Origin: Pedobacter fastidiosus
GTDB lineage: Bacteria > Bacteroidota > Bacteroidia > Sphingobacteriales > Sphingobacteriaceae
DNA length: 64,000 nt
Assembly (NCBI RefSeq): GCF_014306625.1
Contig: NZ_JACRYL010000019.1
Location: forward strand, 2,867-66,866
Direction of reading: 5' to 3'
Notes under the pieces: model-generated
The model's database searches: none
What the model saw: only the letters and a program-made list of their open reading frames with translations
What the model was told of the DNA's origin: nothing
Part shown: in pieces, positions 7,096-57,537 of the stretch
Layout: each line of letters starts with the position of its first letter
How positions within the stretch are numbered: position 1 is the first letter of the stretch
Position numbers and translations under genes: made by a program

Positions 7096-7746
7096 TTAAT
7101 CCAATCCCAAGAAAATTTTATTTTCCAAGGCATATTTAACTAAAGATGCAGCATTGTTTAGGTTTAACTTATGGAAGATATTTTTACGATGCGTATCTAC
7201 CGTTCTAATGCTTAAATAAAGCATATCAGCTATTTGTGCATTGGTGTTGCCGTCTACAATTAACCTAACAATCTCTATTTCTCTAGAAGAAAGCAACTGT
7301 GGTTTATTGCCTTTATCGGGGTTTTTGTTATTCTGCAAAAATTCTTCTAAAATGGATTCTATATCTTCGGTAACATAATATCTGCCATTGCTTACTTCAT
7401 CAATAGCTTTGAAAAGATTCTTATCATCAGTGTTTTTAAAAAGATAACCTTTTGCTCCAGCTTCCAGCATATTCCAAACGCTTCTTTTATCGTTTAACAT
7501 GGATAAAACAATCACATTTATTTCTGGAAAGTCTGATTTTAGCAGTCTAATGGTTTGGTAGCCGTTTAACATCGGCATATTAATATCTAATAAAATAAGA
7601 TCAGGTTTTTCCTTTTTAACCAGTTCGATAACCTCAATTCCATTGTTTGCGGAGGCGATGACATTAAAATCCTTTCGTACGGCTAAAATTAATTTTAGGC
7701 CGTTAATCAGCATATTATGGTCATCCGCAATAAGTATTTTAATCAT
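7096..7746 (-). CDS. NarL/FixJ-family response regulator (receiver + LuxR HTH)
   Basis: 216 residues. Receiver domain 1-120: acidic pair D8-D9, phospho-acceptor D54 in 'LILLDINMP', and lysine in 'GYLFKNTDD'. C-terminal LuxR-type helix-turn-helix ~148-210 ('LSSREIEIVRLIVDGNTNAQ', 'LSIRTVDTHRKNI'). The start codon lies inside the end of the sensor kinase gene (8-bp overlap), so the two are translationally coupled and form a cognate pair. The stop is followed by the 336-bp gap. Target genes are unknown; nearby secreted proteins are possible but not shown. Confidence 0.9.
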   Translation of the reverse strand: MIKILIADDHNMLINGLKLILAVRKDFNVIASANNGIEVIELVKKEKPDLILLDINMPMLNGYQTIRLLKSDFPEINVIVLSMLNDKRSVWNMLEAGAKGYLFKNTDDKNLFKAIDEVSNGRYYVTEDIESILEEFLQNNKNPDKGNKPQLLSSREIEIVRLIVDGNTNAQIADMLYLSIRTVDTHRKNIFHKLNLNNAASLVKYALENKIFLGLD

Positions 7747-43294: not shown

Positions 43295-43349
43295 CTCCTC
43301 AAGTTTTTAAAAGATCATCATTTATTTATTGATCATTTTTTAAAATTTT

Positions 43350-43421
43350 GGGGATTAGCTATCGGAATAGCTAGAGCGCTTCGCTCGGCTTGAAAGGGAT
43401 GGTCGCTTTGAATAGCATTGG
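43350..43421 (+). pseudogene. Decayed tRNA-Ala copy
   Basis: GGGGATTAGCT...AGCTAGAGCGCTTCGCT mirrors the 5' half of the intact tRNA ~112 bases downstream; the flanking TTATTGATCATTTTTT/TAAAATT is duplicated too. The 3' half (AAAGGGATGGTCGCTTTGAA) no longer forms a proper T-arm or acceptor stem and the anticodon loop is disrupted. Confidence 0.65.
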
Positions 43422-43462: not shown

Positions 43463-43536
43463 GGGGGATTAGCTCATTTGGCTAGAGCGCTTCGCTGGCA
43501 GTGAAGAGGTGATCGGTTCGAATCCGATATTCTCCA
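43463..43536 (+). tRNA. tRNA-Ala (anticodon GGC)
   Basis: Acceptor GGGGGAT (43463-43469) pairs with ATTCTCC (43529-43535) using two G-U pairs; D arm GCTC/GAGC; anticodon stem CTTCG/TGAAG with loop CTGGCAG (GGC at 43497-43499); variable AGGTG; T arm ATCGG-TTCGAAT-CCGAT. Discriminator A43536; CCA is not encoded. The 3' end is the attachment site of the adjacent island. Confidence 0.93.
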
Positions 43537-43538
43537 CA
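43521..43538 (+). repeat. attL: 18-bp direct repeat at the tRNA 3' end
   Basis: AATCCGATATTCTCCACA, identical to 57520-57537; overlaps the T arm and acceptor stem of tRNA-Ala. Confidence 0.9.
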
Positions 43539-43552
43539 GACAACCCTAAGTC

Positions 43553-43584
43553 ACTGAAAAGCAGTATTTTAACTGCTTTTCAGT
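43553..43584 (+). terminator. Element-borne terminator just inside attL
   Basis: Perfect 13-bp stem ACTGAAAAGCAGT/ACTGCTTTTCAGT with a 6-nt loop, 16 bases after the tRNA. It probably replaces the chromosomal tRNA terminator displaced to the right end. Confidence 0.75.
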
Positions 43585-43590
43585 TTGATA

Positions 43591-43610
43591 ACTCTGCCAT
43601 AAGTCTGCCA
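43591..43610 (+). other. Putative integrase arm-type sites, left end
   Basis: CTCTGCCA and AGTCTGCCA in tandem (43592-43599, 43602-43610), about 55-70 bases inside attL; AGTCTGCCA is repeated near the right end at 57420-57428. Confidence 0.4.
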
Positions 43611-43766
43611 GTAGAAAAATCTGACGGCAAAAATTTTCGAAAAGCAAATCGAGTAAAAACGGATTCTGTTTTTGAAAAAAAATCAACACAGAGTGTAAAA
43701 TCTGAAAAATATTCCTACAAAAATGGATCTAAAATCGATGGGGATCCCCAGCATGAAGCCCAAAAA

Positions 43767-44993
43767 ATGCGTCATTCGCGGTCTACTTTTGGTTTTATGG
43801 ATATTCCTGAATTGCCATACACAATACCGCGATTAATTAAAGGGAGGGTTATAACCAAAATACCTGCGGGTACAACGTTGGAAAAAGAGATTGCCAAGCA
43901 GCGCTGGTATATAGAATTTTTCTTCCATAATGCTCTCAAGGAGAGAATGGAACGGATTAGGGTAACCAGAAACCTGAACCGCATCAAGGATCCCAGAGAA
44001 AAACTTCGGAACTTCAATCATCTGTGCGAGGCTTACCACATTGCACTTCAGGGAGGATGGAATCCATTAGATGAAAATGCCAATGCCCGCCTTAAAAAAG
44101 AAATTATCGGGATCAACCTGGATGAATCGCTGGTTCTTTTTGAATCTTACCATAAAGCCAAAGGTACACGCCCAAAATCTATGAGTACCTACCTTTCCAC
44201 TTTGAATGCCTTTGTTAAATTCTATGGCGGGGAACGAAAAGTATCCACGATAAGCGATTATGAGATTACGGATTTTCTCAATACCAAGGAAAGGGAAGAG
44301 AAATGGGCTGGGGTAACCTACAATAACTGCCGGATCGCGCTCAACAATCTCTTCCGCTATCTGAAGGTAAACAAGTATGTTCCAGAAAACCCGGTTACAG
44401 ATGCTGAAACCCGTAAGAAAATGCGCACAGAATCGCATCAGGTATTTTCAGAGCGTGATTTTAAGATAATTATGGAATGGCTGGATAAACATGATAAATA
44501 TTGCCAACTCTTCGTGAAGATGATTTACTATACCTGTATCAGGCCAAAGGAATTGCGGTTTTTGAAATTAAAATATATTGATCTGGAGGAAAACCTAATT
44601 ACAATTCCTGGAACTGTGTCAAAAAACAGGAAACCAATTCCGGTTAATATCGATGTCAGCTTGAAGGTTGAACTTGAGAAGCTAAACCTCAGTAATTTTC
44701 CAGAGGAAAGTTTTCTATTGGGATCTCCAATTACCTTTGTGTCAGATAAAATGTGCGCTGAAAATTTTGCTTACAACCGATTTCAGAAATGTCTGGAGGC
44801 AAACAATTTAACAGAAAAAAAATACACATTGTACTCGTTCAAGCATCTTTCAAATGTTAGAAAGTTCAAGGCTGGATGGACCATTGCAGAAATCTGCTCG
44901 GCCAATCGTCACAGTAGTATTTCTGAGACCGATACTTATTTGAAGGAGTTGTTGAAAGTTGTTTTTTCCGACAAGGCAGTACCAGCAATATAG
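43767..44993 (+). CDS. Tyrosine recombinase/integrase of the island
   Basis: 408 residues from the ATG at 43767. The open frame extends back into the tRNA (to 43509), but that part is att and terminator DNA; the ATG at 43767 gives the normal length of Bacteroidota integrases. SAM-like N-terminal domain ('KGTRPKSMSTYLSTLNAFVKFYGG') and catalytic domain: Arg in 'YTCIRPKELRFLKLKYID', 'PGTVSKNRKPIPV', 'YSFKHLSNVRKFKAG', 'CSANRHSSISETDTYLKE' with the nucleophile Tyr. It should integrate and excise the element at the tRNA. No excisionase gene is recognised. Confidence 0.9.
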   Translation: MRHSRSTFGFMDIPELPYTIPRLIKGRVITKIPAGTTLEKEIAKQRWYIEFFFHNALKERMERIRVTRNLNRIKDPREKLRNFNHLCEAYHIALQGGWNPLDENANARLKKEIIGINLDESLVLFESYHKAKGTRPKSMSTYLSTLNAFVKFYGGERKVSTISDYEITDFLNTKEREEKWAGVTYNNCRIALNNLFRYLKVNKYVPENPVTDAETRKKMRTESHQVFSERDFKIIMEWLDKHDKYCQLFVKMIYYTCIRPKELRFLKLKYIDLEENLITIPGTVSKNRKPIPVNIDVSLKVELEKLNLSNFPEESFLLGSPITFVSDKMCAENFAYNRFQKCLEANNLTEKKYTLYSFKHLSNVRKFKAGWTIAEICSANRHSSISETDTYLKELLKVVFSDKAVPAI

Positions 44994-45477: not shown

Positions 45478-46368
45478 CTATTTACTTTTAATTTTTTTAT
45501 CGAACTGTACCTGAAGCTCGGCAATAGTTTTTTGAAATCCCTCCAGATCTATAAATGCCGCTGGGTTATATCCGTCGCCAGGTTGATGCTTCTGGTGAAG
45601 TTTAAATTGGCTAGCATGAGAAGCTAACCAGATGTCGAATTTAAGCGATTTCATCTTCTTTAAGGTATAGCCAAAATCTTTTTCAATATTTGGATAGTTG
45701 CTAACCCCGGAGAATTTTTTTTCAGTTACGATGGTAGGCATGTTGGCAATGAGGACTTTGTAGATCTTTTTTCCATCTTTTACATCCATTATGAAGCTGC
45801 AGGATCCTTTAGTGTGTCCCGGATGGTCTAGCATGGTTATATTGGTTCCTCCAAGGCTAATTAGGTCATGGTCTTTAATTATCACATCCGGGATTAAAGA
45901 CTGGTAGGTGCTTTTTCCATTTCCAATCGCATAATCAGAGGCGCCACCATCCCTTAATACCTGCTCATCATTTTTATTAATTAATACGCTTGCCTTTGTC
46001 TTATTCTTCAAAGCAGCCATCGCACCCATATGGTCATAGTGGGCCTGGGTAGTGAGTATAATTTTGGTGTCAGCCAATCTAAATCCTAGAGCTTTTATGC
46101 TATTTTCTATTAAAACTCCTGAATTTGCAAGTCCCGTATTTATTAAAATATTGCCTTTAGGTGTTACAATTAGATAACAGGCAAGATCGTAAGTTCCAAC
46201 ATAATAAAGATTTCCCACTATGCGAAATGGGGGATAAGGCTTCGACCATTCCTCAGGGGTATCTTTAGGTTCTTGAACTGCCTGTGCCTTACTGTAATAG
46301 CTAAAAAAGACTAGTGAGATAACTAACATCAAATTTTTAGCGGCACTTTTATTTAGAAAAGGGATCAT
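45478..46368 (-). CDS. Subclass B3 metallo-beta-lactamase, GOB-like
   Basis: 296 residues with signal peptide (~1-29, YYSKAQA). Zinc ligands: Q108, H110, D112, H113 in 'LTTQAHYDHMGAM', H185 in 'DHPGHTKGSCSF' and H251 in 'LASHASQFKLHQKH'. A Gln in place of the first His is the hallmark of GOB enzymes of Elizabethkingia, and long segments ('PFRIVGNLYYVGTYDLACYL', 'VLIANMP', 'SHASQF') read like GOB. B3 enzymes hydrolyse penicillins, cephalosporins and carbapenems in the periplasm; activity here is inferred. Complete, no frameshift. Pedobacter carries related B3 enzymes, so intra-family origin is possible, but this copy is inside the island. Confidence 0.9.
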   Translation of the reverse strand: MIPFLNKSAAKNLMLVISLVFFSYYSKAQAVQEPKDTPEEWSKPYPPFRIVGNLYYVGTYDLACYLIVTPKGNILINTGLANSGVLIENSIKALGFRLADTKIILTTQAHYDHMGAMAALKNKTKASVLINKNDEQVLRDGGASDYAIGNGKSTYQSLIPDVIIKDHDLISLGGTNITMLDHPGHTKGSCSFIMDVKDGKKIYKVLIANMPTIVTEKKFSGVSNYPNIEKDFGYTLKKMKSLKFDIWLASHASQFKLHQKHQPGDGYNPAAFIDLEGFQKTIAELQVQFDKKIKSK

Positions 46369-48960: not shown

Positions 48961-49830
48961 TTAAGGTGAAATGAATCAAAATCAGCAGGGAACAATCAAG
49001 GCTAAGCAATCGAACTCTAGAGAAAACGGAGGTGTGCAGTTGATATATTGATTAACACGAGATAAGTAAAATAAAAAATGAGACAAACAGTGGGAAAACT
49101 GATTAATCTCATGAGGTGCTCCTAACAAGACGGGGTACGAACTTTTTTATCGAAGATTTGATGCGAATTGCTGATTTGAAAATTGGTAAAAATAGCGCGA
49201 AAAAATAATCTCAGATTTTAAAATTTGATATATTATTAAATCGTCATTAACTTACCTCTGAAAGAAAAATAAAATGAAGTAGTTAATCCCTTCGTTTTTT
49301 GAGACAGTTAAATTTTTACACATCTAAGGATTGAAAAACTAATTATTTGATTACAGCTTTAATCTTGTAGAATAACACTAACCGTAACAAATAGGTAACG
49401 GTGGAAACTTTAGGGTCATGAAATATTGTACCGTGCTTAACTCGGGATGCATTTCATGTATTACAATGCGATGAGGCTAGAAGACTTAGAATCTTTTAGT
49501 CACCGTTCGATTCCGGTGTAGTGTACGTATCTGATTTTTGTCCGATTTTCGAAAGGATGGTTCTAAAAAGAGCAACCATTTCTCATTAAGAATCAGCGAC
49601 CAGGCTGATGGAAGGGCTTTTTTGCGCGCGGCTCTTGCGGCGCCAAATTGGAAGATTCGCTAATAGCAGCAGTTTAATTTGTTGAAAATAGCTATGCGAT
49701 AGTCGTAAGCCTGGAAGATACCCTTGCACCGCTTACCTTACATGCAGCACTCCTCCGCAGAGCTGCTGATGTGGAAAGTTTTTTGAGATGAGGTTGAAGG
49801 GATGTTTTATCTTTAGCTAAAAATCTGAGC
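48961..49830. other. Gene-poor stretch in the island
   Basis: 870 bases without a convincing gene. A tRNA-like T-arm (CACCG-TTCGATTC-CGGTG near 49502-49519) does not belong to a complete tRNA. A 34-codon open stretch just before the KAP gene (49688-49788) has no recognisable homologue. The sequence becomes more GC-rich from about 49.6 kb, which probably marks the junction to the KAP module. Confidence 0.35.
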
Positions 49831-52350
49831 TTGAAATTAAACCGCTATACTTTACCTGTCATTGTTGCTTCACTCTTTGCAGCTTTGTTGTTCTTTTTCC
49901 GATTACCGGTGAGCCGTCTGCTAGATATAATACTGGTGAGGCCGTTGTTCGCTGATGTTAAAGACGGTGTATGGACTGACCTGGTCCTGTATGCCGTTTT
50001 ACTGGTGTTGGCATATTGGACGGCGAAAAGCCAGACACGTACTTTTCTGTACCGGTTGGTTTTGTATGGCCTGATCTTTTATGGGTTCCAACGCGTTAAT
50101 AGTTATTGGGTGTTTTACAGGCTGTCCACTTTTGATGAACTTGTTTATTGGGATTTGTTCGCTGTTACATTGTTGCTGTTAGTACCGTTGAGTTATGTTT
50201 TAAGAGAAAAAAGCAACGATAGTGCTACAGGAAACAATGAAGGTTTTATAGAGGATAATGCAGTTACCGATGTGGAGGATGATCATTTCAGGCGAAGTAT
50301 TGCAGCTAAGGAAATTGCACGACTGATTTTGTTGACCCGTAACAATAAGTCCTTTGCAATAGGTATTCTTGGGGAATACGGCAGTGGCAAGACTTCTTTT
50401 TTAAACCTCATACACAGTGAATTGAGCGGGAATGATGTGCTGAAGATTGCTTTTGACCCCTGGAGTGCCGGCAGTCCTGAAACCATACGGCGCGAGTTTT
50501 TCGATTTGTTGGCCAGCAAGGTTGCCGAAGTTGATTTGAGCGTGTCGTCGCTTATTTATAGCTATGGGCGCAGGTTGGCGGGCTTTGATGCACGTTCGCT
50601 TTCCTGGCTGAACTGGCTGGGCTTTTTGGGCAACAAGGGTTCTGTCCAGAGTTCCGGGGAGTACCAGCGGATCAACGAAATACTCAGGGCGACCGGACGC
50701 AAGATCGTGATCACGATCGATGATCTTGACCGTCTGCACCCAGTTGAAATTATGGAGGTACTGAAGCTCATCCGTAATACCGCGAATTTTTCAAACGTGT
50801 TCTATCTGGTCGGGTACGATAAGGGCTATGTGCAGGGGGCGATCAAAGCCTTGAATGAGGCCGGTAGTTTGGATTACCTCGACAAGATTTTTCAATTAGA
50901 AATACCTTTGCCAAAGCGCGAGGAAGACGACCTGCTGGTCACCCTACAGGCACGGCTGAAAGAAATGGTAACGCCCGAACACTATGCGGTTTTTGAAAAT
51001 ATCATGATCCCTAATGGTTTCCGCAGTCGTTACGAAAAAGCCTACAGCGGTGTGTTGCGCCAGGGGCGCGATGTAGTGCGTTTTATCAATGGGTTCAAGA
51101 TTATTTACAAACTGATCGGCGAAGAAGTGGATTTTGAATGTCTGGTGCTATTGGAACTGATCAAGTTCCGTTTTCCAGCTATTTACGAACTGATATATGC
51201 GCAGCATGATGTCTTTCTCTACGAACAGCCTTTGCGTTCAAGCCACCAGCAATATTATTCCCCGGTGATGGTAAAGGATGAAGGATCAACGAAGCGTTCC
51301 GATGAGATTTCCTTGTTTAAAACGCATATTGAAAAACTAGGCTGGCTATCTCCTGAAGAGGTGTCGCTTTTGGATGGGCTGTTCATGGCGTTGTTCAAGG
51401 GCAGCCTTTATCATCATCCCGATTCCAAGAACTCGATATCGTATCCGTTATATTTCGAGATCTATTTCCGGTACAGGCTGTCCCAGCGTGACCTTTCCGA
51501 TAAGGATTTTAAAGCCGCATTGGCTTCTGGACACATGCGGGAATATATGGACTATTGCGCTAGTCACGGTCTGCACAAGGAATTAATGGTTAGGTTGATG
51601 CAGGAAGACATTAATAAAGACAGGCGGCATTTCGAGCAGATCATCCGCTGGATATTTGCTTTCGGAAGGACATACGTGCAAAAGGAAAGCAAGTTTAGTT
51701 TTGATTATGAAGCACTGGTCGATAAGATCTATAATTACCACAACCACACTACCGATAAATTGTACAAAAAAGATATTGATGCATATAAACGGTTCATCGA
51801 TCATCTATTCGGGGCGGCAATTGCGCCGTTCCTTTTCGAAAATGAGCTTCTCTACCACGTTAAGAAAAAGGGCGAGGGTTTTGTACTTTCCCTTAGCGAA
51901 ATGACGGCTCACCAATATTCTTATTTTACGCAAATGGCCGGTAGCGGGCACGGCCTTAGCGAAGACACACTGTGGCTGTTTTATGGTGCCAGGGAGCATT
52001 ATCGTGTTCCTGCTGATGAAAGAGGCGCCTATTATGAAAAATGGCGTTTCGAGCCTTCATTGGCTGTAAAGATGAAACAGTATCTTGCTGATAAAGACCC
52101 GAAGGAGTTTTTGAAGTTCAGCATACAACAGGACATGCGTGATCGTTCGCAGGCTTTTATACACAGGGAGGTGATGGAGATGTTTGATGCGCCATCCGAA
52201 TACCGCAGTTTGGTGGCGGAGAATCCGGCGCTGGATGATGAAATACAAAAGGAATACTTAGAACTGTTCGACAAACTGTCGGAAACAAATTTCCAGCAGT
52301 ATACGGAAATAGACCTGAAAACCGAATTGCATAAACCAGAACGTGGGTGA
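49831..52350 (+). CDS. Membrane-anchored KAP-family P-loop NTPase
   Basis: 839 residues from a TTG start (the first in-frame possibility after a stop at 49795 that also leaves the first helix whole). Four hydrophobic helices in residues ~8-125, then the KAP NTPase: Walker A 'GEYGSGKTSFL' at 181-191, 'FDPWSAGS', Walker B 'IVITIDDLDRLHP' at 291-303, and the 'EIMEVLKLIRNTANFSNVFYLVGYDKGYV' segment (in part) typical of KAP. The long C-terminal ~450 residues are helical and unknown. KAP NTPases are named after Kidins220/ARMS and PifA; PifA of the F plasmid excludes phage T7, and QatA of the Qat defence system belongs to this class. GC-rich codons (GGC, CTG, GCC) contrast with neighbours, suggesting separate acquisition. 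Confidence 0.88.
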   Translation: MKLNRYTLPVIVASLFAALLFFFRLPVSRLLDIILVRPLFADVKDGVWTDLVLYAVLLVLAYWTAKSQTRTFLYRLVLYGLIFYGFQRVNSYWVFYRLSTFDELVYWDLFAVTLLLLVPLSYVLREKSNDSATGNNEGFIEDNAVTDVEDDHFRRSIAAKEIARLILLTRNNKSFAIGILGEYGSGKTSFLNLIHSELSGNDVLKIAFDPWSAGSPETIRREFFDLLASKVAEVDLSVSSLIYSYGRRLAGFDARSLSWLNWLGFLGNKGSVQSSGEYQRINEILRATGRKIVITIDDLDRLHPVEIMEVLKLIRNTANFSNVFYLVGYDKGYVQGAIKALNEAGSLDYLDKIFQLEIPLPKREEDDLLVTLQARLKEMVTPEHYAVFENIMIPNGFRSRYEKAYSGVLRQGRDVVRFINGFKIIYKLIGEEVDFECLVLLELIKFRFPAIYELIYAQHDVFLYEQPLRSSHQQYYSPVMVKDEGSTKRSDEISLFKTHIEKLGWLSPEEVSLLDGLFMALFKGSLYHHPDSKNSISYPLYFEIYFRYRLSQRDLSDKDFKAALASGHMREYMDYCASHGLHKELMVRLMQEDINKDRRHFEQIIRWIFAFGRTYVQKESKFSFDYEALVDKIYNYHNHTTDKLYKKDIDAYKRFIDHLFGAAIAPFLFENELLYHVKKKGEGFVLSLSEMTAHQYSYFTQMAGSGHGLSEDTLWLFYGAREHYRVPADERGAYYEKWRFEPSLAVKMKQYLADKDPKEFLKFSIQQDMRDRSQAFIHREVMEMFDAPSEYRSLVAENPALDDEIQKEYLELFDKLSETNFQQYTEIDLKTELHKPERG

Positions 52351-52561
52351 CCCCATTGAAATTTTTGCCTGCTCCGGAAAATATGCGACTGGACGTTGGT
52401 GCACCTGTATTTCGTGCACGGCTAAATATGAACGCTGTTTAGCCAGCAACTAGAAATATTGTATAATATCGAACATGCAGATAAAACATCAGGGTCAAGT
52501 GCCAAATTGCAGACACTGTTTAAAGTGAATTGTGAATAATAATAATAATCTCTTTTAATAT

Positions 52562-53980
52562 ATGACAGATTTTTACGAGGATTTCAAACCGGTTCGTAAC
52601 AGAATAAGACGATTGAATATATTTTCATCGCTGAATATCCTGTTTTCGACGATGAGGTCAAAAAAGCTGGCTATCATACCTGAAGCTGCTGAATTTCTGT
52701 ACATTCATATCCTGATGTACGCGGAGGCTCCGATAACGCCTAAAAACGAAATAGAGATTTGGAATAAGATTTTACCAGAATTATACCAATTTAAAGACCG
52801 AATAACAGCTGCACAGATCGACAAAGACGTTTGGAGGTGGATGCACACCATGGGCTTAAATCAGCTTAAAGCAAGTCATAACTATTATTTCAATCTGGTC
52901 TTCAGATACTACACCATATTCGCAGACCCCAAAATTGCAGAGCACATCGAAGAGCGACTGGGATTGAGTTATAAATCATACTTCGTGTGCGGATTATGGT
53001 TACACTCGGTCTTTCTCGAAAAATTAACCTACCCAAAAACGCATTTTACGCGCAAAGACCACGGCGGCGAAATGGCGCTTGTGCATATGCACAGAACACT
53101 GGAATTGCTGACTATTCCGTTAGAAAAACTGAAATCGGATTTGAAAGCAAGTGTAACTTATGACGACGATATTTTTATCACACAAGGATATCCGCATGTT
53201 ACCCATCCCGTGTTTGAAAATGGCGGTTTGTTATATTGTATGTATCCGGACTATCTCATATTTCAGCTGACTGCCGGCACGTATTATCTTGCTGACATCG
53301 GTAACAATGAGCATCAGCTGGCCAAAGCTTTTGGAGATGGTTTTGAACGATACGTCGGCATCATATTAGATAAAGTCAACGCCCAATACCATTTTTCTGT
53401 CAAGCCCGAAACTGTTTATCAACTGAATAGAAAGCAAGGGCAGTTAAGATCATCGGATTGGATCATCGAAACAGATGAAGCCATAGTTTTTATAGAGTGC
53501 AAGACCAAGAAGCTCAGGCTAAGCTCTAAAAACTTTACGAAGTACCAGGAGACTTTAAATGAGGATTTGCAGCACATGGTGAACGCGGCAGTGCAACTAT
53601 ACAAGGTATACCAGCATTACTCAGACGACCGCATACCCGGCTTGCCCTATGTACCCGATAAGAAGTTTGTGCCACTAGTAGTAACCCTTGAGGATTGGTT
53701 TGCGGGAGGTCCAGATACCGACAAAGTAATCCAAGAAAGGATTGAAGCTGCTTTTATTGAGAAAGGTTTAGATACTTCTCTTTTGAAAAAATATCCTTTT
53801 AAATCATATTCTGTTAATCAACTTGAATTAGACATTCAGCTAATGTTCAGTTGCGGCTTTGTCGAATATTTCAGACGATTGCACAAGGGGGAAATCAGCA
53901 CGGAAGACCGTAAAAGTTTTCCCTACATTGACTACTTTGAGGAGGAATATGAGCGTGAGTTTATAGCGCCATTAAGATGA
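52562..53980 (+). CDS. PD-(D/E)XK-nuclease-like protein beside the KAP NTPase
   Basis: 472 residues. The N-terminal ~250 residues are mostly helical and unrecognised. In the C-terminal part, E262 ('DGFERYVG'), D299 ('RSSDWIIET') and E312-x-K314 ('AIVFIECKTKKL') form the core of a restriction-endonuclease-like fold: acidic residue in helix 1, D before the strand, and E-x-K on the next strand. Following helices ('DLQHMVNAAVQLYKVYQHY') fit. No membrane or signal segment, so it should act in the cytoplasm. It lies 211 bp after the KAP gene on the same strand. Cleavage of foreign DNA is inference; the catalytic triad is by eye. Confidence 0.6.
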   Translation: MTDFYEDFKPVRNRIRRLNIFSSLNILFSTMRSKKLAIIPEAAEFLYIHILMYAEAPITPKNEIEIWNKILPELYQFKDRITAAQIDKDVWRWMHTMGLNQLKASHNYYFNLVFRYYTIFADPKIAEHIEERLGLSYKSYFVCGLWLHSVFLEKLTYPKTHFTRKDHGGEMALVHMHRTLELLTIPLEKLKSDLKASVTYDDDIFITQGYPHVTHPVFENGGLLYCMYPDYLIFQLTAGTYYLADIGNNEHQLAKAFGDGFERYVGIILDKVNAQYHFSVKPETVYQLNRKQGQLRSSDWIIETDEAIVFIECKTKKLRLSSKNFTKYQETLNEDLQHMVNAAVQLYKVYQHYSDDRIPGLPYVPDKKFVPLVVTLEDWFAGGPDTDKVIQERIEAAFIEKGLDTSLLKKYPFKSYSVNQLELDIQLMFSCGFVEYFRRLHKGEISTEDRKSFPYIDYFEEEYEREFIAPLR

Positions 53981-55533: not shown

Positions 55534-55989
55534 TTAAAAAACCGGCTGGTCATTTAAAGAATTGATCCCCTGTTCTTTGAGTCTTTGTAGACCATCTTTC
55601 ATTGACTTAACCTGTTCGGGTGCGTGTCCCTGCCATATTGTAACTTCTCCAACAGCTTTAAAAGGATATACCGATCGATAGGATTTTGTTGGATTGCCGG
55701 GAAATTTCCTGTCTGTTAAATCCGGGTCGTCTTCAATTTCTCCGGTTGGCTCTGCCAGGTAGATTCTTTCGCGTCCTTCACCCAGAGCAAGTTCTGCCCC
55801 TCAGATGGCCGCATCCAATGTCGGTGTCAGAAAAATATATTTTGCGTTTTTCCTCTGACCAAAGTTCGAGCTGTTGCTAGCCTGGATAAATTCTCCAATT
55901 TTCAGGTCTGCCTTTGTCCCGTGGAAATAGGTCTGGGCAAAGGGGCTCTGATTGGCAGTACCCTTGGTTTCGCTTTTGTTTAATTCCAT
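55534..55989 (-). pseudogene. arr: Rifampin ADP-ribosyltransferase (arr) with an internal stop codon
   Basis: The full 151-codon frame reads as Arr: 'FAQTYFHGTKADLKIGEFIQ' (catalytic His23 in FHGTKA), 'AKYIFLTPTLDAAI', a TGA at codon 63 (55801-55803), then 'GAELALGEGRERIYLAEPTG', 'EIEDDPDLTDRKFPGNPTKS', 'YRSVYPFKAVGEV' and 'GHAPEQVKSMKDGL'. In intact Arr proteins this position is Trp (AAIWGAELA), so a single TGG-to-TGA change explains the stop. No other damage is seen, implying a recent inactivation. Starts 4 bases after the VOC gene stop, in one operon. Intact Arr inactivates rifamycins. Confidence 0.88.
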
Positions 55990-55993
55990 CTGT

Positions 55994-56446
55994 CTATTTC
56001 CCGCCAATTTCTTCTGCCAGTCCCACAAGAAGACCCTCGGTTCCCCTGATATAGCATAACCGATAGGAGTTCTGATACTGAACGATTTCTCCAACGAGCT
56101 GTGAACCCTGTTCGATAAGCCTGGATACCATTTCGTCGATGTCTTCCACCGTGAACATTGCACGGAGGTAACCAAGGGCGTTGACAGGCGCATTCCGATG
56201 ATCCGAAACAGTTGGGGGTGTGATGAACTTCGAAAGTTCGATTCGGCTGTGGCCATCCGGGGTGATCATCATTGCAATCTCCACGTTCTGGGAATTCAGT
56301 CCGGTAACTCGACACGCCCATTCGCCTTCGACTTTCCCTCTGCCTTCGAGCTTTAGCCCTATTACAGAGAAAAATGCAATGGCGTCATCTAGTGATTCTA
56401 CAACGATGCCGACATTGTCCATTCTTAACAGTTTGTTTTTTGACAT
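55994..56446 (-). CDS. VOC-family (glyoxalase/bleomycin-resistance-like) protein
   Basis: 150 residues from the start at 56446 (MSKNKLLRMDNVGIVV); an in-frame start at 56521 adds a polar tail. 'VGIVVESLDDAIAFFSVIGLKLEGRG', 'GHSRIELSKF', 'AMFTVEDIDEMVSRLIEQG' and 'LCYIRGTEGLLVGLAE' give the paired beta-alpha-beta-beta-beta units with His/Glu metal positions. Members include glyoxalase I, dioxygenases and fosfomycin or bleomycin resistance proteins; the ligand is not known. Forms an operon with arr. Confidence 0.82.
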   Translation of the reverse strand: MSKNKLLRMDNVGIVVESLDDAIAFFSVIGLKLEGRGKVEGEWACRVTGLNSQNVEIAMMITPDGHSRIELSKFITPPTVSDHRNAPVNALGYLRAMFTVEDIDEMVSRLIEQGSQLVGEIVQYQNSYRLCYIRGTEGLLVGLAEEIGGK

Positions 56447-56890
56447 TATCTTATTTTTATTGAATTTTTCGATTGGTTTTTTTTTAGTCTCTGAAGTAAA
56501 TAAGTAATTAATTCTTTCCATCTATTACTGATAGCTCCTAAGAGGTTACATTGAAAACCCCATTACCATTTAAATTTCTTTAAGTTCCTTATCAACTTGA
56601 AACGCTAACGTTCTCTAAAGTAACCTTTTCAAATTAAAGTTCAAACTTTGCTCCTTTATGTGCCTATAACCAAGGTATATTGACCCAACTGTTTCAGTGT
56701 TCTCTTAATGACAAATGTTATTGGGCTAAGTCTGTCTATTTTGCCCCTCATTGAGAAATGGCTAATCAAAGGGCAAAGTGGTTCATGTTACTGTTTCCTT
56801 AGTTAAGGGAGATTGTTGTAGCAGAATTGAGATAAAGACGCTAAAGGGAACAAGGATTCAACAGGTCAAGGCAACTCCTGAGGGCTGTTT

Positions 56891-57519: not shown

Positions 57520-57537
57520 AATCCGATATTCTCCACA
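57520..57537 (+). repeat. attR: 18-bp direct repeat
   Basis: AATCCGATATTCTCCACA, identical to attL. To the right begins chromosomal sequence. Confidence 0.9.

Follow-up and report, generated by a model that had tools for sequence, protein, structure and literature searches.

The 64,000-nucleotide stretch of Pedobacter fastidiosus DNA analysed here (contig NZ_JACRYL010000019.1, positions 2,867 to 66,866; the window) carries two adjacent open reading frames (ORFs). These are probably two independent single-gene defence modules of known types, chance neighbours in one 14-kb island at a tRNA-Ala gene. ORF1 is, on its sequence, a PifA-like KAP ATPase with an added four-helix N-terminal module, and ORF2 is a remote relative of GapS1. 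These two members appear to be new, and both kinds of defence are already known. The initial annotation had joined the genes into a single undescribed phage-defence pair. Its KAP/PifA kinship, nuclease-type residues and island are retained, as is an anti-phage role that family membership makes plausible for each gene, and the pair is not; two single-gene claims replace the claimed two-gene system. Both ORFs lie at the coordinates annotated before:

49831..52350, + strand: ORF1, 839 amino acids, TTG start; membrane KAP NTPase, PifA-like
52562..53980, + strand: ORF2, 472 amino acids, ATG start; PD-(D/E)XK-type residues, remote GapS1 relative

Linkage of the two genes

Across the loci analysed, the two genes show no conserved linkage. 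A locus is assigned to the ORF1 family when its KAP score is at least 300 bits, and 38 distinct loci qualify. A GapS1-family ORF is present in one of the 38, the window itself. Of 24 separate loci of the GapS1 family, 2 carry an ORF1-type KAP, namely the window and L056 of genome G348. These counts omit GapS1-family matches below 50 bits, the duplicates L072, L074, L082 and L083, and short duplicate stretches, and their ORFs were chosen mechanically by length, without gene prediction. L001, L010, L050, L060, L073, L084 and L089 have little or no flank on at least one side, and partner absence is partly tested there. In genome G369, a KAP match of 28.9 bits and a GapS1 match of 24 bits lie 9 kb apart; this case is weak and uncounted. 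No ORF1-type KAP is found in the examined stretches of 8 of the 12 plasmids with an ORF2 relative, nor in that of the viral contig with one. Conserved co-occurrence was the annotation's own test of its pair, and these counts, which include the window, go against it.

ORF1 also occurs elsewhere without ORF2. The DNA shared with its closest copy is:

49481..52382, + strand: DNA common to the window and Mucilaginibacter sp. JRF (L067); blastn, 91.6% identity

Besides ORF1, this stretch includes about 350 bp before the gene and 32 bp after it, and it stops at 52382, about 180 bp before ORF2. The DNA shared with Mucilaginibacter SG564 (L075) spans 49767-52382 and has the same right end. The two Mucilaginibacter copies of ORF1 are 93% and 92% identical to it, and both have an SLFN_AlbA_2 protein (Schlafen-AlbA_2) downstream. 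Because the DNA shared with L067 and L075 ends before ORF2, ORF1 seems to travel as a cassette together with its upstream region. The low co-occurrence and the boundary of the shared DNA lead to rejection of the two-gene pair.

ORF1 and its family

ORF1 matches Pfam KAP_NTPase (PF07693) over residues 158-428 (4.7e-34; 118.4 bits against a cut-off of 20). The PADLOC PifA model is its top defence model (2e-55; ORF1 138-661, model 4-564 of 720) and also that of all 8 scanned relatives, in agreement with the kinship first proposed. The Walker A motif is G181-S189 (GEYGSGKTS), and Walker B lies within KIVITIDDLDRL (291-302) and ends in D297-D298. Both motifs are where they had been annotated, and G184, G186, K187, D297 and D298 are invariant in an alignment of 24 sequences.

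The annotated four-helix anchor is also borne out. The mean hydropathy of the 24 sequences gives four N-terminal hydrophobic regions at a threshold of 1.3 (9-27, 47-65, 71-89 and 98-124) and none between the Walker motifs. For the window protein alone, three of them pass a stricter threshold of 1.6. An AlphaFold model built from the 24-sequence input (mean predicted local distance difference test score, pLDDT, 82.2) has helices at the four regions. ORF1 is under purifying selection, with ratios of nonsynonymous to synonymous substitution rates (dN/dS) of 0.114 and 0.135 against the two Mucilaginibacter copies.

The genome-contig scan yields at least 86 relatives of ORF1 among at least 589 pattern-matched stretches; the best 80 of the 86 were used, and they include a tail of partial matches. 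Relatives occur in 34 of 395 genomes of the class (E <=0.001), many with the P-loop part only. KAP relatives occur on 1047 plasmid records, and not one of them spans 80% of ORF1. Phage records contain no relatives, and viral contigs contain 22 loci with relatives that mostly match the P-loop part only. The family tree intermixes Sphingobacteriaceae, Chitinophagaceae and Cyclobacteriaceae, a pattern that would be expected from horizontal transfer. ORF1 belongs to a PifA-related family, seen at the 38 loci, whose N-terminal membrane module is conserved.

The neighbours of ORF1-family genes vary between loci. Downstream of copies at 63-50% identity are an integrase (L068), PRTase-CE (L069, L071), an unnamed 445-amino-acid protein (L047), YceD (L048) and an opposite-strand gene (L070). 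Directly upstream of related KAP genes, on the same strand, are a Shedu-like gene (L078), a reverse transcriptase (L079) and ApeA/HEPN (L081), and the distances from the KAP gene to the upstream defence gene are -11 bp in L078, 61 bp in L079, 50 bp in L080 and 113 bp in L081. In L084, a gap of 4 bp separates the KAP gene from an MmeI-like protein named by eye. Neighbours in genomes G061, G759, G689 and G800 suggested interchangeable PD-(D/E)XK partners for ORF1. That idea is weakened by the wider neighbour set, which includes TIR, HEPN, reverse transcriptase, PRTase-CE and housekeeping genes. The nuclease labels of the neighbours in L047 (445 amino acids) and L049 (217 amino acids) were given by eye, and Pfam and PADLOC gave none.

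As a separate observation, a KAP NTPase gene at L066:411-4986 overlaps an IetS-like subtilase gene (PADLOC IetS, 6e-249), a KAP-protease arrangement.

ORF2 and its relatives

ORF2 matches the NCBIfam model NF047931, antiphage_GapS1, at 4.2e-16, with 58.9 bits against a curated cut-off of 320. The alignment covers ORF2 residues 11-382 and profile positions 1-378 of 455. It starts at residue 11, so the N-terminal part of ORF2 has relatives, and the earlier statement that its first 250 residues match nothing is not sustained.

The residues annotated as a nuclease-like core, E262, D299, E312 and K314, are all present, together with Q345. Among 13 aligned sequences, of which the other 12 are 14-22% identical to ORF2, G258, E262, D299, K314 and Q345 never vary, and position 312 always holds E or D. 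We take this E...D...(E/D)xK...Q pattern to be that expected of a PD-(D/E)XK active site. The structure model of ORF2, made from a two-row alignment, is unusable (mean pLDDT 36.5), and a restriction-like fold is therefore suggested by the residues and the homology. Sequence searches of solved structures gave no useful match.

The GapS1 model is matched by all 9 scanned GapS1-like relatives, one of them over the cut-off. It is also matched in 12 of 395 genomes of the phylum, including that of the window, with 2 over the cut-off. By alignment, relatives of ORF2 are found in 9 of the 400 genomes searched in the order, again including that of the window. Relatives at 22-29% identity occur on 12 plasmid records from Pseudomonadota, Actinomycetota and Cyanobacteriota. 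Phage records contain none, and one viral contig carries a relative among phage-like genes (L169:3017-4561; its terminase was named by eye). ORF2 is 14-17% identical to three Bacteroidota GapS1 members that score 414, 354 and 212 bits. ORF2 represents a very diverged branch of the GapS1 relatives, whose Bacteroidota, plasmid and phage-borne members have a set of active-site residues in common.

Alternative explanations

Several observations weigh against two unconnected modules. ORF1 and ORF2 are on the same strand with a spacing of 211 bp, so they could be co-transcribed. The gap contains a sigma-70-like match (52440-52467), which is at chance level (15 matches against 11.2 expected), and promoter and terminator scans gave no informative signal. 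The KAP gene of L056/G348 scores 284 bits and lies 3 kb from a GapS1-family gene in convergent orientation; the 300-bit line leaves this locus out of the 38 despite that gene. ORF1-family genes can also be tightly spaced with other defence genes, overlapping an MmeI-type enzyme gene by 4 bp in L050 and a Shedu-like gene by 11 bp in L078, and lying 3 bp from a YhcG nuclease in L051. The family may therefore sometimes work with a neighbouring gene. Close relatives of ORF2 were absent from the first genome-contig scan, and among 301 genomes of the family, the one match to ORF2 beyond the window is a 50-residue fragment that contains a stop. Since close relatives were not found and its own branch is poorly sampled, a young pairing with ORF1 in ORF2's own lineage is possible.

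KAP and PD-(D/E)XK proteins can serve other roles, and it is unlikely, but the most serious of the alternatives, that one or both genes are not anti-phage. PMC8594841 reports that PifA protected against very few phages and suggests other primary functions as possible. However, the genes next to relatives of ORF1 match known defence families again and again.

It is distinctly improbable that membrane-anchored PifA-like KAP ATPase rings act as infection sensors combinable with many neighbouring effectors, ORF2 being one. The effectors would comprise Shedu-like, MmeI-type, YhcG, TIR/SEFIR, reverse transcriptase, ApeA, Schlafen-AlbA_2, PRTase-CE and GapS1-like proteins. The differing defence-type genes directly upstream of the KAP genes in L078, L079, L080 and L081 would fit such an arrangement, as would the close contacts with MmeI-type or similar proteins in L050 and L084. 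However, the position of the neighbour is inconsistent, upstream at some loci and downstream at others. The L048 gene lies beside YceD, that of L097 is flanked on both sides by opposite-strand genes, and in L070, L077 and L087 the next gene downstream is never on the strand of the KAP gene. Defence islands produce such neighbours anyway.

Least probable of all is a pair in which ORF1 detects infection at the membrane and thereby allows ORF2 to cleave nucleic acid: adjacency on one strand, membership in anti-phage-related families and the presence of both gene kinds within 3 kb in G348 favour it, but they are outweighed by the rarity of joint loci, the 93% identical ORF1 with a different downstream gene, the end of the shared DNA before ORF2, and the plasmid and viral-contig relatives of ORF2 without an ORF1-type KAP in the stretches examined.

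With two independent modules as the preferred explanation, ORF1 would be anchored in the inner membrane by its four N-terminal helices, and its P-loop domain probably forms an ATP-dependent ring, like RdrA. By analogy with PifA, a phage cue would trigger ORF1, causing membrane damage and aborted infection. The PD-(D/E)XK-type active site of ORF2 probably cuts nucleic acid during infection, with ORF2 acting alone.

The island and its integration site

ORF1 and ORF2 are within a 14-kb island at a tRNA-Ala gene, as had been annotated. Its landmarks are:

43463..43537, + strand: tRNA-Ala(GGC), integration target of the island; ARAGORN, Rfam tRNA 56.8 bits
43521..43538, + strand: left attachment repeat, formed by the tRNA 3' end; identical over 18 bp to 57520-57537
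57520..57537, + strand: right attachment repeat, 18-bp repeat of the tRNA-Ala 3' end; flanks nearly contiguous in G251
43509..44993, + strand: tyrosine recombinase, presumed integrase of the island; NCBIfam XerA/XerD-type matches, all below cut-off

The GTG start of the recombinase falls within the tRNA gene, so its true start may be further downstream. A 17-mer of the attachment repeat has exactly 2 copies in the 5.27-Mb assembly. In the relative G251, 51 bp separate a matching tRNA from the sequence found beyond the right repeat. The distance from the tRNA to the right flank is about 1.5 kb in G094, about 8 kb in G135 and about 87 kb in G1091; at these latter two distances, the site is probably occupied by other insertions in G135 and G1091.

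Besides ORF1, ORF2 and small ORFs, the island carries, by NCBIfam, the tyrosine recombinase, a B3 metallo-beta-lactamase and an SDR oxidoreductase that scores 329 bits (cut-off 231), as well as a small MarR-type regulator whose match is below cut-off. The subclass B3 metallo-beta-lactamase gene (45478-46368, - strand) scores 321 bits against a cut-off of 240, and its best family match is PEDO-1, below cut-off. Overlapping small ORFs lie at 55801-56521 (- strand). One of them ends in the first 46 positions of a rifampin ADP-ribosyltransferase model and looks truncated, and another is VOC-like by eye.

Short partial matches to the tRNA-Ala gene lie directly upstream of it (43326-43385); earlier integrations may have left them behind. 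Close to the left end of the ORF1 cassette, 49484-49530 contains a remnant like a tRNA 3' half (T arm, by eye), which is conserved in L067 at about 7650-7690. Its T-arm pattern has no match elsewhere in its own genome with up to 1 mismatch, and it is possibly an old attachment scar.

Comparison with known systems

QatA (qatABCD): The KAP ATPase core of ORF1 resembles QatA (PADLOC, 3.9e-16). In contrast, ORF1 scores 40.1 bits against a curated cut-off of 600, and Qat membership is rejected on this score. QatB, QatC and QatD are not named among the listed NCBIfam matches of ORF2 and 8 island ORFs, with the presence of all three models in NCBIfam unchecked.

RdrA (RADAR): The best solved-structure match of ORF1 139-539 is RdrA (8hr8_A; Z 16.4, root mean square deviation 5.0, 341 residues, 15% identity), and other ATPases match at Z of about 11-12. 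This comparison barely covered the N-terminal membrane module and the C-terminal third of ORF1, and the RdrA match excludes both. No RdrB-like partner is recognised in the NCBIfam scans of ORF2 and 8 island ORFs, which involved no dedicated search and in which the presence of an RdrB model is unchecked.

GapS1: ORF2 shares homology with GapS1 over residues 11-382 and has the same E...D...(E/D)xK...Q residues, but differs in its score, which is below the NCBIfam cut-off. The role of GapS1 is presumably anti-phage, as the name of the NCBIfam model implies. The name reportedly originates in the Gamma-Mobile-Trio paper (Mahata et al. 2024), which is cited in PMC12715929.

PifA (F plasmid, T7 exclusion; PADLOC PDLC02361): ORF1 resembles PifA in the KAP P-loop core and the helical region that follows (ORF1 138-661), and the 37 other ORF1-family loci have no GapS1-family gene. 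The difference is an N-terminal module, about 135 residues long, for which four membrane helices are predicted and which lies outside the PifA model; the comparison is with the PADLOC model only. According to PMC8594841, PifA senses the T7 proteins Gp1.2 and Gp10, kills by membrane depolarization and has a narrow phage range. As we read it, the mechanism of PifA is still poorly understood, and full-length relatives with an obvious membrane module, such as ORF1, could therefore help to understand it.

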